12,281 nucleotides of DNA from contig NCCR01000136.1 of the NCBI GenBank assembly GCA_002279765.1, positions 1 through 12,281 on the forward strand, written 5' to 3'. Within the stretch, counting starts at the first letter, position 1, and every line of letters begins with the position of its first letter. Origin of the DNA: Verrucomicrobia bacterium 12-59-8. Lineage in GTDB: Bacteria; Verrucomicrobiota; Verrucomicrobiae; Verrucomicrobiales; Verrucomicrobiaceae. The notes under the pieces were generated by a model, which saw nothing but the letters and a program-made list of their open reading frames with translations, was not told the origin of the DNA and ran no database searches. The position numbers were made by a program, and so were the translations under genes. Positions 7,411 through 12,281 of this stretch are shown here, piece after piece.

Positions 7411-7725
7411 TCAGGCGGCCAGCGCGGCTTCGAGGAAGCCCTTGCTTTTCACCCCGGTGATCGTGTTCACGGGCTGGCCGTTTTTAAAGACGATGAGCGT
7501 GGGGATGGCGCGGATGCCAAAGCGGGCCTGGAGATCGGGATAGGCGTCAATGTCCACCTTGGCGATGGTGGCTCGTCCTGCCTGCTCGGTGGCAAGCTGG
7601 TCGAGGATGGGCGACATCATTTTGCAGGGGCCGCACCACTCCGCCCAGAAGTCCACAAGGACGGGCTGGTCCGTGCCGGAGAGGGTGGTGTCGAAGGTTT
7701 CGGTGGTGAGAGTGATGGGTTTCAT
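7411..7725 (-). CDS. trxA: Thioredoxin
   Basis: A 104-residue classical thioredoxin. The active site WCGPC is at residues 30-34, preceded by VLVDFWAE, and the cis-proline is P75 in the RAIPTLIVFKNG segment. The length and the absence of a signal peptide indicate a cytoplasmic disulfide reductase. It is the first gene of the redox operon after tetR. Upstream, between tetR and trxA, a TTGACT/TCTATT promoter and a palindromic TetR-type operator are seen, so it is probably induced together with the peroxiredoxin and dehydrogenase genes. No clear Shine-Dalgarno sequence precedes the ATG. Confidence 0.97.
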   Translation of the reverse strand: MKPITLTTETFDTTLSGTDQPVLVDFWAEWCGPCKMMSPILDQLATEQAGRATIAKVDIDAYPDLQARFGIRAIPTLIVFKNGQPVNTITGVKSKGFLEAALAA

Positions 7726-7743
7726 AGGGGTGATTAGGTTAAG

Positions 7744-7773
7744 AATAGACCGGTCGGTTTATTTACGAGTCAA
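7744..7773 (-). promoter_or_regulatory. trxA promoter with TetR operator
   Basis: On the minus strand TTGACT (7773-7768) is followed, after 18 bases, by TCTATT (7749-7744), an acceptable -35/-10 pair. Between and over them lies TAGACC-GGTC-GGTTTA (plus strand 7746-7761), which matches the operator in front of tetR (TAGACC-AATC-GGTCTA) in 11 of 12 arm positions. It is centred where a repressor would block RNA polymerase. The box positions are read by eye. Confidence 0.6.
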
Positions 7774-7779
7774 AAGCAA

Positions 7780-8367
7780 TCAAGGGGTCAACAATGTGCG
7801 CACAAAATTCAGGGCATCGCGCGGAGGAGTGGCATCGCGAGAGACGGCAGAGCGCTGCATGGCTCCATTCCAGAGATCATGAATGATGACGGCCATCTCC
7901 GCAGGGCGCACGCTTTGGGCGATCTTCTTTTTCTCGACGCCTTCCTGCAGCACCTGTTCCAGGATGGCGATCCATTCGCGGTTTCCTGCGGCAAGCACCT
8001 CGCGCATCGGTTCACTCATGTCAGCCACTTCAGCGGCCAGTTTGAGCACCAGACAGGGGCATTTCCCCTTGGTTTCGAGGACGCGGCAGATGACACCCTC
8101 GAAAAAGCTGAGCAGTCGGCGCAGCGGATCGGGCTCAGGTGTGGCGGAGAGCAGCATCTGCTTTTTGTAGGCCGTGGCATCAGCCACGTAGTGCTTCAGC
8201 AGTTCCACGCCAAACTGCTCCTTGGACTTGAAATGATGGTAGAACGAACCCTTGGGCACCTTCACAGCCTCAAGAATCTCCGTCAGTCCGACCGAATGAA
8301 AGCTCTTCTCGAGCATCAGCCCTTCGGCTGCGTCGAGAATGCGTTCTTTGGTCGTTCGGTCGCTCAT
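7780..8367 (-). CDS. TetR/AcrR-family transcriptional regulator
   Basis: A 195-residue regulator. Residues 4-55 form the TetR DNA-binding domain: TTKERILDAAEGLMLEKSF, then the helix-turn-helix VGLTEILEAVKVPKGSFYHH and the usual FKSKEQ. The ligand domain contains KGKCPCLVLKLAAEVADMS, with C94, C103 and C105; the 'GCLxxxLAxE' position is shared with NemR-like regulators, in which cysteine modification by electrophiles or oxidants triggers release. A thiol-sensing role is therefore plausible given the redox operon downstream, but is not shown. I chose ATG 8367 because the frame upstream (open to 8808) runs antisense to the L,D-transpeptidase gene and has no TetR-like sequence. A perfect TAGACC/GGTCTA palindrome sits in its promoter, pointing to autoregulation. 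Confidence 0.93.
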   Translation of the reverse strand: MSDRTTKERILDAAEGLMLEKSFHSVGLTEILEAVKVPKGSFYHHFKSKEQFGVELLKHYVADATAYKKQMLLSATPEPDPLRRLLSFFEGVICRVLETKGKCPCLVLKLAAEVADMSEPMREVLAAGNREWIAILEQVLQEGVEKKKIAQSVRPAEMAVIIHDLWNGAMQRSAVSRDATPPRDALNFVRTLLTP

Positions 8368-8376
8368 GATTCCGGA

Positions 8377-8405
8377 CAAATAGACCAATCGGTCTAGTTT
8401 GTCAA
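8377..8405 (-). promoter_or_regulatory. tetR promoter with palindromic operator
   Basis: On the minus strand TTGACA (8405-8400, perfect -35) is followed after 17 bases by TATTTG (8382-8377, weak -10). The spacer holds TAGACC-AATC-GGTCTA (8381-8396), a perfect 6-bp inverted repeat with a 4-base centre, flanked by AAA and TTT. Its arms recur in front of trxA. The L,D-transpeptidase gene starts 98 bp away in the other direction and might share the site. Confidence 0.7.
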
Positions 8406-8494
8406 ATGCGTTTTGGATTCGGCCATTCCACCTGCTGCAACGATGAAACGCAGTTCTCGCGTGCAGACACACGCCATCGGATGAATCTTCCCCC

Positions 8495-8959
8495 ATGAGC
8501 CTCGCCCACCCACACCTCGAAGTCAGCATCGGCACGCAGCGGCTGCGCTTGTTTGATGACAGGCGTCTTGTGCGCGAGTGGGCATGCAGCACCTCGAAAT
8601 TCGGCATCGGCTTCACCGAAGGCAGCAACAAGACCCCTCTGGGCCGCTTTGTGGTGAAGGAAAAGCATGGGGATGGCGCGGACAGCGGCACCATTTTCAA
8701 GGCACGCCAGCCCGTGGGGCATTGGCACCCTGGCATGGAGACAAAGTCCGATCTCGTGCTCACCCGCATCCTCTGGCTGCATGGCACCGAGCCGCGCAAT
8801 GAGAACACCTTCCAGCGCTACATCTACATCCACGGCACCAATGATGAAAGCAGCATCGGCCGCCCCGCCAGCCACGGCTGCATCCGCTTGCGCAACCGCG
8901 AATTGATCGAGCTGTTTGATCTCGTGCCGGTGGGGACACCGGTGTGGATCGAGGAATGA
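8495..8959 (+). CDS. L,D-transpeptidase (YkuD domain)
   Basis: A 154-residue protein that is almost entirely a YkuD catalytic domain. The conserved pair is H113 (IHGTN) and the S126-H127-G128-C129 motif with R131 (RPASHGCIRLRN); C129 is the expected nucleophile. Upstream, VSIGTQRLRLFDDRRLVREW is the usual first sheet, and TPLGRFVV is also conserved. Such enzymes make 3-3 cross-links in peptidoglycan or attach lipoproteins to it. No signal peptide or membrane helix is seen, although the substrate is periplasmic; the same is true of some short homologues with an undefined export route. It is divergent from tetR. No clear ribosome-binding site is seen before ATG 8495. Confidence 0.9.
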   Translation: MSLAHPHLEVSIGTQRLRLFDDRRLVREWACSTSKFGIGFTEGSNKTPLGRFVVKEKHGDGADSGTIFKARQPVGHWHPGMETKSDLVLTRILWLHGTEPRNENTFQRYIYIHGTNDESSIGRPASHGCIRLRNRELIELFDLVPVGTPVWIEE

Positions 8960-9020
8960 GGCAGTACGATGGGCACTCCTGCCCGTCGATCAGCGCGCCC
9001 TTTCCTCCCCAGCACTCAAG

Positions 9021-9045
9021 CCCCATGCCCCGGAGTGGGATGGGG
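9021..9045. repeat. Strong hairpin-forming inverted repeat
   Basis: CCCCAT (9021-9026) pairs with ATGGGG (9040-9045); with one bulged G the stem continues by CCC (9028-9030) with GGG (9037-9039), closing on a six-base loop. No T-run follows on either strand, so it is not a typical intrinsic terminator, but it may mark the 3' end of the L,D-transpeptidase transcript, or be a dispersed palindromic repeat. Confidence 0.45.
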
Positions 9046-9115
9046 GTGGCGACAGCCCGCCCGTCCCTGAGCGGGTGGCAGCGTCCCATATCTTGACCCC
9101 CTCCAGAGTCAGGCG

Positions 9116-9163
9116 GTTTGGCGCAGCAGCGTCTGAAAGATGAGCCACCGCTACGCGCCAAAC
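9116..9163. repeat. 9-bp perfect inverted repeat with 30-base spacer
   Basis: GTTTGGCGC (9116-9124) is the exact reverse complement of GCGCCAAAC (9155-9163). It lies between the transpeptidase and the DGR target gene. It may be a regulatory site, a long-loop hairpin, or the scar of a small mobile repeat; no coding sequence is enclosed. Confidence 0.45.
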
Positions 9164-9268
9164 ACACCCAACGTACGACAAGACTTGCACCTCAAACTCT
9201 CATTTGGAGAGGGGGCTCTTTTGAAAGTTGGCGATGCGCGGCAGCATCAAGGCACCGCACCAACCTGC

Positions 9269-9304
9269 GCCAGTGTGGCGGGACAGTGTCAGGAAAACAC
9301 TGGC
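9269..9304. promoter_or_regulatory. Three evenly spaced CAGTGT half-sites upstream of the DGR target gene
   Basis: GCCAGTGT (9269-9276) and ACACTGGC (9297-9304) form a perfect 8-bp inverted repeat. A third copy of CAGTGT lies in the spacer at 9284-9289. The three half-sites begin at 9271, 9284 and 9297, exactly 13 bp apart, the last being inverted. The array ends 32 bp before the ATG of the target gene, a plausible place for an operator or for a leader hairpin. No binding factor can be named. Confidence 0.35.
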
Positions 9305-9336
9305 AGGCCGCACCGTGGCCGGTTTAAGATGGCCGC

Positions 9337-10092
9337 ATGAGTCTCACGACCGATCTGCCGCGTTACCAGCCCGCCCTTCTCGGCAAGGAGCCGGGGGACG
9401 AGTGCTACCTCGACCTCACACCGGACGCACCATCCCAGAAGACGCCGATGATCTTCTGCTGGTGCCCCCCGGCGGGCGCGGAGCCGGGCTTCTGGTTGGG
9501 AAAGCACCTCGTCACCCAGGCGCAGTGGCAGGCACTCATGGGCGGGAACCCCAGTCGCTTTGCCGAGAGCGGGCAGCACCCGGTGGACCAGGTGTCCTGG
9601 GACAGGGCGCAAGAGTTTGCCCAGGCCTCCCGCCGCCTCTTCCCAGACGGGCAGACCCAGCTCTCGCTGCCGCAGGAGGCGCAGTGGGAGCGCGCCTGCC
9701 GGGCAGGGTGTACCGGAGACTTTGCCGTGGGTGCTGGCCACAGCCTGAACAGCCAGTTGGCCAACTTCGATGGCGGCTACCCCGAAGGACAGAGCAGCAC
9801 CGCTTTCAACTGGATCTACCGTGAGAAAACCCTCCCGGTGGGCAGCTTCCCGCCAAATGCCTGGGGCCTGCACGACATGCACGGCCAGCTCTGGGAGTGG
9901 TGCGCCGACTGGCTCGATAAGGAACGCGGCAACCGCGTGCTGCGCGGCGGCTCCTGGTTCCACGACGGCAGGTACGCTGCCGCCGGCTTCCGCTACGGCG
10001 TCGGACCGCGGTTCGGCAGCGGCAACTACGGCCTGCGTGTCTCCCCCAGTTCCATCCAGCAAGAAAAAAAGAGCGCAACGAGGGACGAGTGA
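9337..10092 (+). CDS. DGR target protein: FGE-sulfatase (C-type-lectin fold) domain with variable C-terminal region
   Basis: A 251-residue protein made of one formylglycine-generating-enzyme (FGE-sulfatase) domain. The family signatures appear in order: CWCPPAGAEPGFWLGKHLVT (41-60), MGGNPSRF (68-75), HPVDQVSWDRA (81-91), LPQEAQWERACRAG (111-124), NAWGLHDMHGQLWEWCADW (174-192) and LRGGSW (202-207). Residues 199-239 are encoded by the variable repeat; compared with the template, 12 residues differ (208, 209, 210, 213, 218, 220, 222, 223, 225, 227, 228, 229). FGE-type targets use the C-type-lectin scaffold to display variable residues for ligand binding; catalysis is not implied. No signal peptide or membrane segment is seen, so an intracellular ligand is possible. 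A polar tail (QQEKKSATRDE) follows the repeat. The accessory gene begins 48 bp later. Confidence 0.95.
   Translation: MSLTTDLPRYQPALLGKEPGDECYLDLTPDAPSQKTPMIFCWCPPAGAEPGFWLGKHLVTQAQWQALMGGNPSRFAESGQHPVDQVSWDRAQEFAQASRRLFPDGQTQLSLPQEAQWERACRAGCTGDFAVGAGHSLNSQLANFDGGYPEGQSSTAFNWIYREKTLPVGSFPPNAWGLHDMHGQLWEWCADWLDKERGNRVLRGGSWFHDGRYAAAGFRYGVGPRFGSGNYGLRVSPSSIQQEKKSATRDE
9926..10049 (+). repeat. DGR variable repeat (VR)
   Basis: These 124 bases align without gaps to 11586-11709. There are 14 mismatches: 9958, 9961, 9964, 9973, 9988, 9994, 10000, 10001, 10004, 10010, 10016, 10019, 10021 and 10022. At every one the template has A and the VR has T, G or C (A to T five times before 10000 and once at 10001, A to G seven times, A to C once). 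The remaining 110 positions are identical, including every template C, G and T. The invariant 3' part (10023-10049) is GC-rich and plays the part of the IMH; the first non-A difference, at 10050 (T against C), marks its end. Confidence 0.97.
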
Positions 10093-10140
10093 AGCGATAA
10101 GCCCGCGCAGCGGTGAAATTTTTTGAACCATCCTGATCCA

Positions 10141-10587
10141 ATGCCCTTTGCCTTTTTCAGCATCCCCGCCGCCGCCCGGCCGGAAGTGGCGGCAGAGCTG
10201 AATGCCTTCCTGCGCAGCCACCGCGTGCTGCGGGTGACGCAGCAGTGGCATGAGAACGAGGGGGCCTGGGCCTTCAGCGTGGAGTATGTGGACGGTGTGG
10301 CTGGCACTGGAACACCGGGCAGTGACAAGGTGGACTACAAGGAAACGCTGCCACCGGAGCAGTTCGCCCTCTTTGCACGGCTGCGCACCCTGCGGAAAAC
10401 GATTTCCGAACGGGAGGGCACGCCGGTCTTCGCGGTGTTCAGCAATGCGCAGCTCGCTGAGATCGTGCAGCGCGGCTGCCAGACTCTGGCAGATTTGCGC
10501 AGCATTCCCGGTGTGGGCGAGTCCCGCGTGGCCAAATATGGCGTGGAGGTGCTGGCCGCGCTTCAAGAAGGGGGGCGGCCCGCATGA
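10141..10587 (+). CDS. HRDC-domain DGR accessory protein
   Basis: A 148-residue protein. The first part (FAFFSIPAAARPEVAAELNA, then FLRSHRVLRVTQQW) and the centre (KVDYKETLPPEQFALFARLR, LRKTISEREGTPVFAVFSNA) lead into an HRDC domain of about 70 residues ending QLAEIVQRGCQTLADLRSIP and GVGESRVAKYGVEVLAAL. Proteins of this kind recur beside the RT in a subset of DGRs lacking Avd, and are thought to replace it as nucleic-acid-binding partner of the RT. The small basic Avd barrel is indeed absent here. I chose ATG 10141, which gives the usual MxFxFFxIP start; a TTG at 10123 would add six residues. The stop overlaps the RT start as ATGA (10584-10587), so the two are translationally coupled. Confidence 0.9.
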   Translation: MPFAFFSIPAAARPEVAAELNAFLRSHRVLRVTQQWHENEGAWAFSVEYVDGVAGTGTPGSDKVDYKETLPPEQFALFARLRTLRKTISEREGTPVFAVFSNAQLAEIVQRGCQTLADLRSIPGVGESRVAKYGVEVLAALQEGGRPA

Positions 10588-11885
10588 GAAGCGTGGGGGG
10601 GCTTTGGGCGCAGATCGTGGCGCGGGAAAATCTGACCGCCGCCGCCTGGCTGGCGGCCAGAGGGCGGCGCTCCCAGACGGCGGTGCGTGCCTGGCTGGCG
10701 GATTTGGACCGGCAGTTGGAACTCCTGCGCACGGAACTGGTCTGCGGGCAGCTCCACTGCGGCGACTGCCGTACCTTCACGATCTACGATCCGAAAGAGC
10801 GGCTGATCACCGCGCCGGTGTTCCGGGAGCGCGTGCTGCACCATGCTATCATGCGCGTGTGTGGTCCGGTGCTGGAGCGCCGGCTCATGCACCATAGCTA
10901 TGCCTGCCGGGCGGGAAAGGGCACCTACGCCGCACTGGCGGCCGCCAGTGCGGCAGCACGGCGCGGCGCATGGTTTGTGAAGCTGGATGTGCGCAAATAC
11001 TTCGACAGCATCGACCACGCCTGCCTGCTGGCACGGCTGGAGCGCGTGTTTCGAGAGCAGCGCGTGCTGGACCTCTTTCGCCTGGTGCTGGCAGCCTACG
11101 CGCCACAGCTTGGCCGCGGGCTGCCCATCGGCACGCTGATCTCTCAGCATTTGGCGAATTTTTACCTCTCGCCGCTGGACACCCAGGTGCTGCAGCACCT
11201 GCGCCCGCGCGGCTATGTGCGCTACATGGATGACATGGCGCTCTGGGTGGACGGCTCGGACCAGGCCCGCACGGCACGAGCAGCAGTGGTGGCCTATGCG
11301 CGGGACGAACTGCACCTGGAAATGAAAACCGCCTTTATCAACCGCAGCAGACACGGCATGGATTTTCTGGGCCACCGGGTTTTTCCCGATCACCTGGGCC
11401 TCAACCGCGCCAGCCGCAGGCGCTACCAGCACCGGCTGCGGGCGCTGACCCATGCCGTGGAGGGCGGCAGCATGCAGGAAACGGCGGCGCAGGTGCGTGC
11501 AGTGGCGCTGACGGCTTTTTCCCTGCGCGCAGACTGCCTGCACTGGCGGCGGCGGGTGGTGGTAAATTTGGGCGGCAGTCCATGGGCGGCAACCGCGTGC
11601 TGCGCGGCGGCTCCTGGATCAACAACGGCAGGAACGCTGCCGCCGGCATCCGCAACGGCAACGAACCGCAGTTCGACAACAACAACTACGGCCTGCGTGT
11701 CTCCCCCAGCTCCAGCCGGAGGCCGGAGCGCCTGGATGGAACCGGCCTGCTGTCCAGCTCCAGCACCGCCAGCGGTGGTGGACGAAACCCCAGCTCCCCG
11801 CCGCCGGTCAGTAGCCCATTGGTGCAGCATAGCACCGGGTCAGGACGGGCGGCGGGGCATGCTTTTTCAAATGTTACCCTCATGA
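10584..11885 (+). CDS. DGR-type reverse transcriptase with reading frame extending through the template repeat
   Basis: The frame is 433 codons. Residues about 60-325 form a group-II-like RT: KERLITAPVFRERVLHHAIM (71-90), the motif A region FVKLDVRKYFDSID with D135, the DGR-specific IGTLISQ (182-188, in place of the QGxxxSP of most RTs), YMDD with catalytic D216-D217 (214-217), and the LEMKTAFIN and MDFLGHRVF (259-267) motifs. The IGxxxSQ motif is associated with the low adenine fidelity of this class. The conserved part stops near residue 325. There is then no in-frame stop: residues 335-375 are the template repeat read in a frame other than that of the target, giving an Ala/Thr/Ser/Pro-rich tail without visible domain, and the stop is at 11883-11885, overlapping the ATG of the next gene. 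Whether the tail is needed is unknown. A purine-rich AAGAAGGGGGG (10565-10575) precedes the ATG. Confidence 0.95.
   Translation: MRSVGGLWAQIVARENLTAAAWLAARGRRSQTAVRAWLADLDRQLELLRTELVCGQLHCGDCRTFTIYDPKERLITAPVFRERVLHHAIMRVCGPVLERRLMHHSYACRAGKGTYAALAAASAAARRGAWFVKLDVRKYFDSIDHACLLARLERVFREQRVLDLFRLVLAAYAPQLGRGLPIGTLISQHLANFYLSPLDTQVLQHLRPRGYVRYMDDMALWVDGSDQARTARAAVVAYARDELHLEMKTAFINRSRHGMDFLGHRVFPDHLGLNRASRRRYQHRLRALTHAVEGGSMQETAAQVRAVALTAFSLRADCLHWRRRVVVNLGGSPWAATACCAAAPGSTTAGTLPPASATATNRSSTTTTTACVSPPAPAGGRSAWMEPACCPAPAPPAVVDETPAPRRRSVAHWCSIAPGQDGRRGMLFQMLPS
11586..11709 (+). repeat. DGR template repeat (TR)
   Basis: This is the donor copy of the 124-bp repeat, beginning at the A of residue 335 of the RT frame. 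It holds 27 adenines, 14 of which are replaced in the VR. Read in the frame of the target it gives GNRVLRGGSW followed by INNGRNAAAGIRNGNEPQF and DNNNYGLRV: nine Asn (AAC) codons, the codon that gives the widest range when both A are randomised. No adenine substitution in this frame can create a stop codon (the A-containing codons are AAC, ATC, AGG, GAA, CAG, GAC, TAC and AGC). The 3' end coincides with the start of a hairpin (11709-11729). Confidence 0.97.
11709..11857 (+). other. Structured segment after the TR, candidate 3' part of the template RNA
   Basis: Three inverted repeats lie in 150 bases. GCTCC (11709-11713) pairs with GGAGC (11725-11729), with GCC/GGC inside and a GGA loop, starting at the last base of the TR. 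CACCGC (11764-11769) pairs with GCGGTG (11772-11777). CCCCGCCGCC (11796-11805) pairs perfectly with GGCGGCGGGG (11848-11857) and encloses GGTGC/GCACC (11821-11836), which can be prolonged by CCC/GGG with a small bulge. TTTTT follows at 11863-11867. In studied DGRs a structured RNA next to the TR guides RT binding and priming; this segment is well placed for that, but it could also end the transcript. The function is inferred. Confidence 0.5.
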
Positions 11886-12281
11886 GCACTCCCAATCTGA
11901 TCGAAGCCACTGCCCGCATCCAGCTTTGCCACCGCCGGCGGCGCAATCATCTCAATCTGGCGGAGATGGGCCTCACCACGGCGGACCTGGATGCCATTCC
12001 CGAGTTCGCCCGGCTCACCCAGCTTGAGTTTCTCGACCTGACGGGCAATGAACTCACGGCACTGCCGCACGGCCTCAGCGCCTTCACCCGCCTGCGCTGG
12101 CTGGGGCTGAACTTCAACCGGCTCGCGGCCATCGACGGGATTGAATATCTGGAGTCTCTGGAGCGGCTTTATCTGCGCAGCAATGAATTGACCGCCGCGC
12201 CCGCCTTGCTGGCGGGGCTAAAACGGTTGGTGGAGCTGGATTTGCACGGGAACCGAATCCTTGCCCTGCCCCTGGAGTTTC
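11882..12281 (+). CDS. Leucine-rich-repeat protein, N-terminal part (3' end outside window)
   Basis: ATG 11882 opens a frame of 133 codons that reaches the end of the window. After a short N-terminal helix (LIEATARIQLCHRRRRNHLN) come at least four leucine-rich repeats of 22-24 residues with the LxxLxxLDLxxNxLxxLP pattern: LTQLEFLDLTGNELTALP, then FTRLRWLGLNFNRLAAIDGI, LESLERLYLRSNELTAAP, and LKRLVELDLHGNRILALP. Repeats of this bacterial type often precede a Roc GTPase or other effector domain; what follows here is outside the window. There is no signal peptide in view, so it appears cytoplasmic. Its ATG overlaps the stop of the RT frame (ATGA), suggesting coupled translation with the DGR. A role in the DGR is not established. 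Confidence 0.9.
   Translation, partial: MSTPNLIEATARIQLCHRRRRNHLNLAEMGLTTADLDAIPEFARLTQLEFLDLTGNELTALPHGLSAFTRLRWLGLNFNRLAAIDGIEYLESLERLYLRSNELTAAPALLAGLKRLVELDLHGNRILALPLEF

Follow-up and report, generated by a model that had tools for sequence, protein, structure and literature searches.

We analysed a window of 12,281 nucleotides from Verrucomicrobia bacterium 12-59-8 (contig NCCR01000136.1), and all coordinates below are positions in this window. It holds, all on the forward strand, a target gene for a 251-aa protein of the FGE/C-type-lectin fold (9337–10092; Pfam FGE-sulfatase, 4.5e-31), a gene with a TTG start for an HRDC accessory protein (10123–10587; Pfam HRDC, 6.2e-18), an open reading frame (ORF) for a 433-aa reverse transcriptase (RT; 10584–11885; RVT_1) and the start of a leucine-rich repeat (LRR) gene (11882–12281) that is cut by the window end. 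The target gene carries a variable repeat (VR) followed by a hairpin, and the matching template repeat (TR) is followed by a structured RNA. With an adenine-specific TR/VR pair, a DGR-type RT, an HRDC protein, a lectin-fold target, an RNA after the TR and a hairpin after the VR, the locus is a complete HRDC-type diversity-generating retroelement (DGR). An earlier inspection of the letters alone, here called the sequence-only reading, had proposed a complete DGR with an HRDC accessory protein, and Pfam found the FGE-sulfatase, HRDC and RVT_1 domains. That reading made no mention of the structured RNA downstream of the TR, of the hairpin behind the VR or of an RT frame that continues across TR and RNA as far as the LRR gene. 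The element is of a known kind, with new detail in the RNA (its HRDC branch), in the hairpin (its loop motif) and in the nested layout.

The VR (9926–10049) and the TR (11586–11709, inside the RT ORF and in a different frame) align over 124 bp without gaps. They differ at 14 positions, each of them an adenine in the TR (8 A>G, 5 A>T and 1 A>C). The remaining 13 of the TR's 27 adenines recur unaltered in the VR, as does every one of the 97 positions with C, G or T. The hypergeometric chance of such a distribution is 1.8e-11. The sequence-only reading had rested on this pattern; a program alignment agrees with it in every count and shows no difference outside adenines. Translation likewise confirmed that twelve residues of the target are altered (TR INNGRNAAAGIRNGNEPQFDNNN, VR FHDGRYAAAGFRYGVGPRFGSGN). 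As a control, we scanned 81 loci (80 relatives and the window) for TR/VR pairs with one tolerated base at a time: a pair was found in 64 loci when this base was A, and in 0, 2 and 1 loci when it was C, G or T, respectively. In Prosthecobacter debontii, 18 of the 19 differences between TR and VR lie at TR adenines. In the 6.3-Mb genome of the closest relative with DNA obtained (G284), the single TR has a single VR; a TR with two VRs occurs in the loci L009, L015, L017, L031, L035, L037, L056, L060, L068, L079 and L080.

Related targets differ from the window's target in the same manner. We compared the first 16 of 120 listed homologues, with codon classes set by the window's TR: differences were present at 11–16 of the 17 codons that hold an adenine in this TR versus 0–10 of the 25 other VR codons, and outside the VR 14–40% of the residues differ. 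For example, the target P0003 differs at 12 of the 17 TR-adenine codons, at none of the 25 other VR codons and at 55 of 209 residues elsewhere. (The target alignment, A5, leaves out 61 of the 120 listed homologues.) In related targets, variation thus sits mainly at TR-adenine codons. It was variation at template adenines that the sequence-only reading had suggested looking for; here it is seen between related organisms, not inside a single population. Because the 14 changes in the window are confined to adenines and related targets vary mainly at TR-adenine codons, the DGR has been active in the past, as that reading had also held; it is a cellular element and was probably active recently.

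The AlphaFold model of the target (mean pLDDT 79; weak at residues 130–157 and at both ends) shows a lectin-type fold with the VR at the C-terminus. Its best match in the PDB is Treponema denticola variable protein 1 (2y3c, E 2.8e-13). No signal peptide or lipobox was seen in the target protein by eye. An HRDC ORF is present in 77 of the 80 related genome loci and was detected in 4 of 80 IMG/VR loci, where RT identity is 33–48%; the remaining IMG/VR loci are presumably of the Avd type. The window's RT matches PHROG 1423 (7e-85), with 8ub7 (bRT, E 5.2e-41) as best PDB match, and its translation contains YMDD and IGTLISQ, the latter of which we take to be a DGR RT motif; both motifs had been read correctly before. 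Alignment A1 of the RT leaves out 84 of the 120 listed homologues.

The base directly after the TR (11710) begins an Sp-like structured RNA domain (11710–11862), whose last stem is followed by a T-run (11863–11867), a possible transcription end. Folding of 11710–11870 gave a z-score of −3.0, with none of 200 shuffles as good. The 160-base stretch downstream of the TR has a mean folding z of −1.53 over 58 loci (window included), 22 of which score below −2, and RT coding sequence used as control has a mean z of +0.13, with 0 of 60 below −2; loci without an accepted TR were left out of this test (21 of 81) and of the RT-frame count given below (17 of 81). In a seed alignment of 10 loci, 17 of 20 pairs show compensatory change. 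A covariance model built from these seeds, R1, matches 60 of the 80 genome loci at E ≤ 1e-3, 50 of which are not seeds. When 53 matches were aligned, 93.1% of cells were paired versus 58.6% after shuffling (0 of 500 as high) and 36–48% when the sequences were slid, and RNAalifold on this alignment, which is fitted to R1's structure, gave 19 pairs, all with compensatory changes. A second model, R2, built from the 53 R1-aligned matches with the window not in training, finds the window's RNA at 11710–11862 with 32.4 bits (E 1.3e-6 over 753 kb) and adds 7 loci among the 29 genome loci outside its training. By R1 and R2 together, the RNA domain is present in 67 of the 80 related genome loci.

The position of the RNA is tied to the TR. 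We compared start positions in the 56 loci (window included) where an accepted TR accompanies the RNA: in 31 the RNA begins immediately behind the last TR base, and in 51 within −11 to +36 of the TR end. A set of 24 loci from the same families and order gave R2 matches in 18 (E ≤ 1), 17 of them reaching E ≤ 0.02; within these 24, L084, L197, L199, L226 and L237 repeat L034, L048, L062, L080 and L003, and L165 belongs to the R2 training set. In 50 control loci with other RT matches, a clear RNA match was found only in L207 and L230, apparent fragments of DGR RTs, and a third match has E 0.8. We further scanned 57 IMG/VR loci, 47 of them with an accepted TR, counting R2 matches at E up to 1. The match follows the TR at −6 to +69 in 24 of the 25 loci with both, and in 21 the TR is upstream of the RT; this count leaves out 23 of the 80 loci, chosen by hand, and an off-place match in L102, whose sole R2 match lies away from the TR, was not entered. 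Even with the TR upstream of the RT, then, it is the TR that the RNA comes after, not the RT.

In the window, the conserved body of the RT ends at about residue 329 (11570), and the frame then stays open through the TR and the RNA domain to 11885. Cassettes whose TR overlaps one end of the RT ORF form a known class (group 3 of PMC3521204). The conserved stretch after the TR might then be protein, and the RT a 433-aa enzyme with a C-terminal tail encoded by the TR and the DNA downstream of it. The frame is indeed open into or through the TR in 34 of the 35 top-ranked aligned homologues, P0155 alone stopping earlier, in a ranking that used the 433-aa query and so favours long homologues; in addition, the RT stop and the LRR start overlap as ATGA in both the window and P. 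debontii. These two points are met by three others. In the comparison with P. debontii, the counts of differences at first, second and third codon positions are 56/52/150 for the RT body, 5/7/6 for the TR and 16/14/22 for the DNA downstream of it, so that the third-position excess is weaker beyond the RT body (Fisher p 0.0099). In 64 loci with a TR, the TR is nested in the RT frame in 12, overlaps its end in 16, lies after its stop in 33 and upstream in 3; of the 33, 30 still carry the RNA domain, and at least two (L005 and L017) have a broken RT frame. Finally, in 28 GC-rich loci the RT frame is open in 6 and the other two frames in 8 and 2, and so does not stand out as open. Stops in the RT frame, frame openness and weaker codon periodicity rule out tail conservation as proof of a longer RT. 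We regard a protein tail as an unlikely reason for the conservation after the TR; the tail itself may be translated.

Three RT homologues have unusual ends. In P0122 and P0125, which are 500 and 521 aa long, the RNA-encoded part is followed by a further tail made of tandem repeats. In P0126, on a contig of 1292 bases, the TR is followed by an apparent VR flank (tail RQGKKSVTRDE), which suggests a chimeric assembly or an exchange between TR and VR.

The long GC-rich stem followed by TTTTT could also be read as an intrinsic transcription terminator of the DGR operon and nothing more. The domain has two further conserved helices and conserved unpaired bases, a simple terminator scan did not list the site, and in the 21 IMG/VR loci with an upstream TR the RNA sits between TR and RT, where a terminator would cut off the RT. 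We consider this explanation improbable.

The claim that no Rfam family exists for this RNA, raised by empty scans at the gathering threshold, was withdrawn when permissive scans brought up RT-14 (RF02921), a distant relative that has the same position after the TR. Of 7 TR-upstream loci in which no HRDC was detected, 4 exceed the gathering score of RT-14 (L151, L110, L134 and L104), and L136, L118 and L094 do not. In the 20 HRDC-locus genomes, it lies below gathering at the DGR RNA in 6 (L064, L039, L018, L032, L055 and L060) and gives no match at E ≤ 0.1 in 13. It also matched below the cut-off in 2 of 14 control genomes; we count the sub-threshold matches because six of them lie on the DGR RNA itself. 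The window is not a member of RT-14, with no match at E ≤ 1 in 11560–11900; nor was there a match at E ≤ 1 to the RNA of L044, or any at gathering in 18 other loci. Since RT-14 passes in TR-upstream loci and mostly fails in HRDC genomes, the RNA class is, by these scans, catalogued in part, with its HRDC branch mostly below the Rfam threshold. Elsewhere in the genome of L044 (G381; L273), an RT-14-type RNA scores above the threshold with 50.8 bits and perhaps belongs to a second DGR. We recognised no description of the HRDC-type RNA or of the loop motif described next in the literature searched, whose coverage did not extend to key DGR and RNA papers.

The VR is followed by a hairpin (10074–10096) whose loop is the 9-mer GAGGGACGA (10080–10088) and whose stem holds the stop codon of the target. 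By eye, 10074–10076 pair with 10094–10096, and 10078–10079 with 10089–10090. The exact 9-mer lies within 130 bases after 29 of 70 VRs, window included (one of 71 VRs was dropped, its flank being too short), and has 38 copies in 1.13 Mb, both strands of these loci; the motif was found by reading the same sequences that were later used for these counts. The two bases flanking GAGGGACGA pair in 23 of 27 distinct sites, with a permutation mean of 6.9 and 0 of 10,000 permutations as high. The C-termini of related targets, TRDE or NEGR, are readable as hairpin DNA in two frames. This suggests that the DNA after the VR is kept and not the encoded peptide. The hairpin after the VR of phage BPP-1 has a loop of the GRNA class (PMC3240598), and by analogy the GAGGGACGA hairpin plausibly corresponds to this target-site hairpin. 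Base pairing of the GAGGGACGA loop with CGUCCC of the RNA was considered by eye and dropped.

We consider it highly probable that the locus works as an HRDC-type DGR, in which the RT, recruited and primed by the RNA domain, copies the TR into adenine-mutated cDNA that replaces the VR. One transcript would carry HRDC, RT, TR and RNA domain, and the RT together with the HRDC protein would bind the RNA domain, much as the Bordetella RT–Avd complex binds the spacer RNA. The RNA domain is predicted to recruit the RT and to prime error-prone copying, which would start at the 3′ end of the TR and mutate the TR adenines in the cDNA. This cDNA would then replace the VR of the FGE/C-lectin-fold gene, with the hairpin as a mark of the target site, the part played in BPP-1 by the hairpin behind its VR. 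The outcome would be a repertoire of ligand-binding surfaces on an apparently cytoplasmic lectin-fold protein. To our knowledge, the BPP-1 spacer is the only DGR spacer with experiments. According to PMC12875486, this spacer, which lies after the TR, folds, recruits bRT–Avd and holds the priming adenine, and we infer by analogy that the RNA domain plays a similar role here.

Several observations weigh against this account. R1 does not find the window's RNA, and R2 scores it with just 32.4 bits. Helix 1 is partly mismatched in the window, and the side of the inner loop opposite AGUAG reads CAGGAC, where most relatives have CGAA (by eye); the conserved AGUAG/CGAA loop presumably resembles a bulged-G (sarcin-ricin) motif, from which the window deviates on the 3′ side. 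Between the RNAs of the window and P. debontii there is 1 compensatory pair, and 40 of 42 pairs are unchanged. Thirteen of the 80 genome loci have no RNA match at E ≤ 1e-3 (the contigs of L002 and L025 end at the TR), and the exact GAGGGACGA loop is absent after 41 of 70 VRs. The P. debontii loop has one mismatch (GAGGTACGA), and the TR/VR pair of that species carries one non-adenine difference. R2 also does not find the BPP-1 spacer (best match 2.3 bits, elsewhere), so that membership of this spacer in R2 is not supported and homology of the window's RNA to it is not shown. At L194 3415–3442, after the BPP-1 VR, a segment that holds the hairpin resembles AGUAG...CGAAG of the RNA's last stem, perhaps by chance (2.3 bits).

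Helix 1 and the inner loop of the window's RNA depart from the consensus, which would fit a fossil element that no longer diversifies its target. Against this, the RT motifs are intact and related targets vary at TR-adenine codons. The VR and TR are moreover identical outside adenines over 124 bp, and such perfect identity needs either recent homing or strong constraint. We give the fossil explanation little credence.

The window's neighbouring genes are ordinary cellular ones (AlgH, NUDIX/NrtR, TetR and YkuD), and the DGR locus is likely chromosomal. P. debontii keeps the target, HRDC, RT, TR, RNA and LRR in the same order; no match to the window's other upstream genes was found in the 19 kb compared beside its cassette. 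Among 101 phage records with a similar RT, none reaches 60% identity. The non-phage setting put forward by the sequence-only reading fits, because the neighbours are cellular, no phage RT reaches 60% and the closest relative carries its element in a 6.3-Mb genome. For a phage or prophage speak the 4 of 80 IMG/VR loci with an HRDC DGR, at 33–48% RT identity; against it speak the cellular neighbour genes, the 101 phage RT records and the target-to-LRR order kept inside the 6.3-Mb P. debontii genome, and we hold it to be very improbable.

The ATG of the LRR gene overlaps the RT stop, and the window holds the first 133 aa of its product, all of them LRR. The P. debontii homologue is 68% identical over 129 aa and has LRR, Roc and COR-A domains above the cut-off, so the window gene likely encodes a Roco (LRR-Roc-COR) protein. 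Across the ORFs of the window and 193 loci, a similar gene within the fetched flanks was seen, besides the window's own, in L006 alone, and the link between DGR and Roco is therefore narrow. In L006, a Bacteroidetes HRDC DGR, the Roc/COR-like gene lies shortly downstream (7591–10254; phmmer). We tentatively raise, as a rather unlikely extension of the HRDC-type DGR, that ribosomes translate the RT across the very template and guide RNA it uses, up to a stop coupled with the Roco gene, that translation and reverse transcription compete there for one RNA and so gate diversification, and that the diversified lectin-fold protein acts inside the cell as an anticipatory receptor connected to a Roco switch.

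Should the link to a Roco GTPase hold, the idea that bacterial immunity uses hypermutated receptors would gain a further case amenable to testing. The HRDC form prevails among the nearest relatives of the RT, and the mechanistic work that we encountered concerns the Avd-bearing phage element. The RNA, whose start is sharp, and the hairpin, whose loop recurs, are cis-elements open to separate mutation, and R2 finds the RNA where the RT-14 threshold of Rfam does not.

Among known systems, the TvpA DGR of T. denticola shares with the window an HRDC accessory gene that overlaps the RT gene and an FGE/C-lectin-fold target, the best PDB match of the window's target. In the TvpA DGR the accessory gene sits between TR and RT, whereas in the window the TR and RNA are placed within the RT ORF, at its 3′ end; the window's target also lacks a lipoprotein signal by eye. 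The BPP-1 DGR is alike in its RT family (8ub7), adenine-specific change from TR to VR, RNA after the TR and hairpin after the VR. It differs in having Avd, where the window has HRDC, as well as a phage tail-protein target, a TR upstream of the RT and a post-VR loop of the GRNA class instead of GAGGGACGA. According to PMC7159879 and PMC8195603, bacterial conflict systems include both FGS domains diversified by DGRs and GTPases of the Roc-COR type. General domain scans of the window's genes brought no vWA, MoxR or STAND partner to notice, and the LRR/Roco gene is, unlike in those systems, a separate neighbour downstream of the RNA. With its likely Roco gene, the window would resemble these FGS/DGR and AP-GTPase (Roc-COR) systems, where diversified FGS domains and Roc-COR GTPases belong to one class of system.

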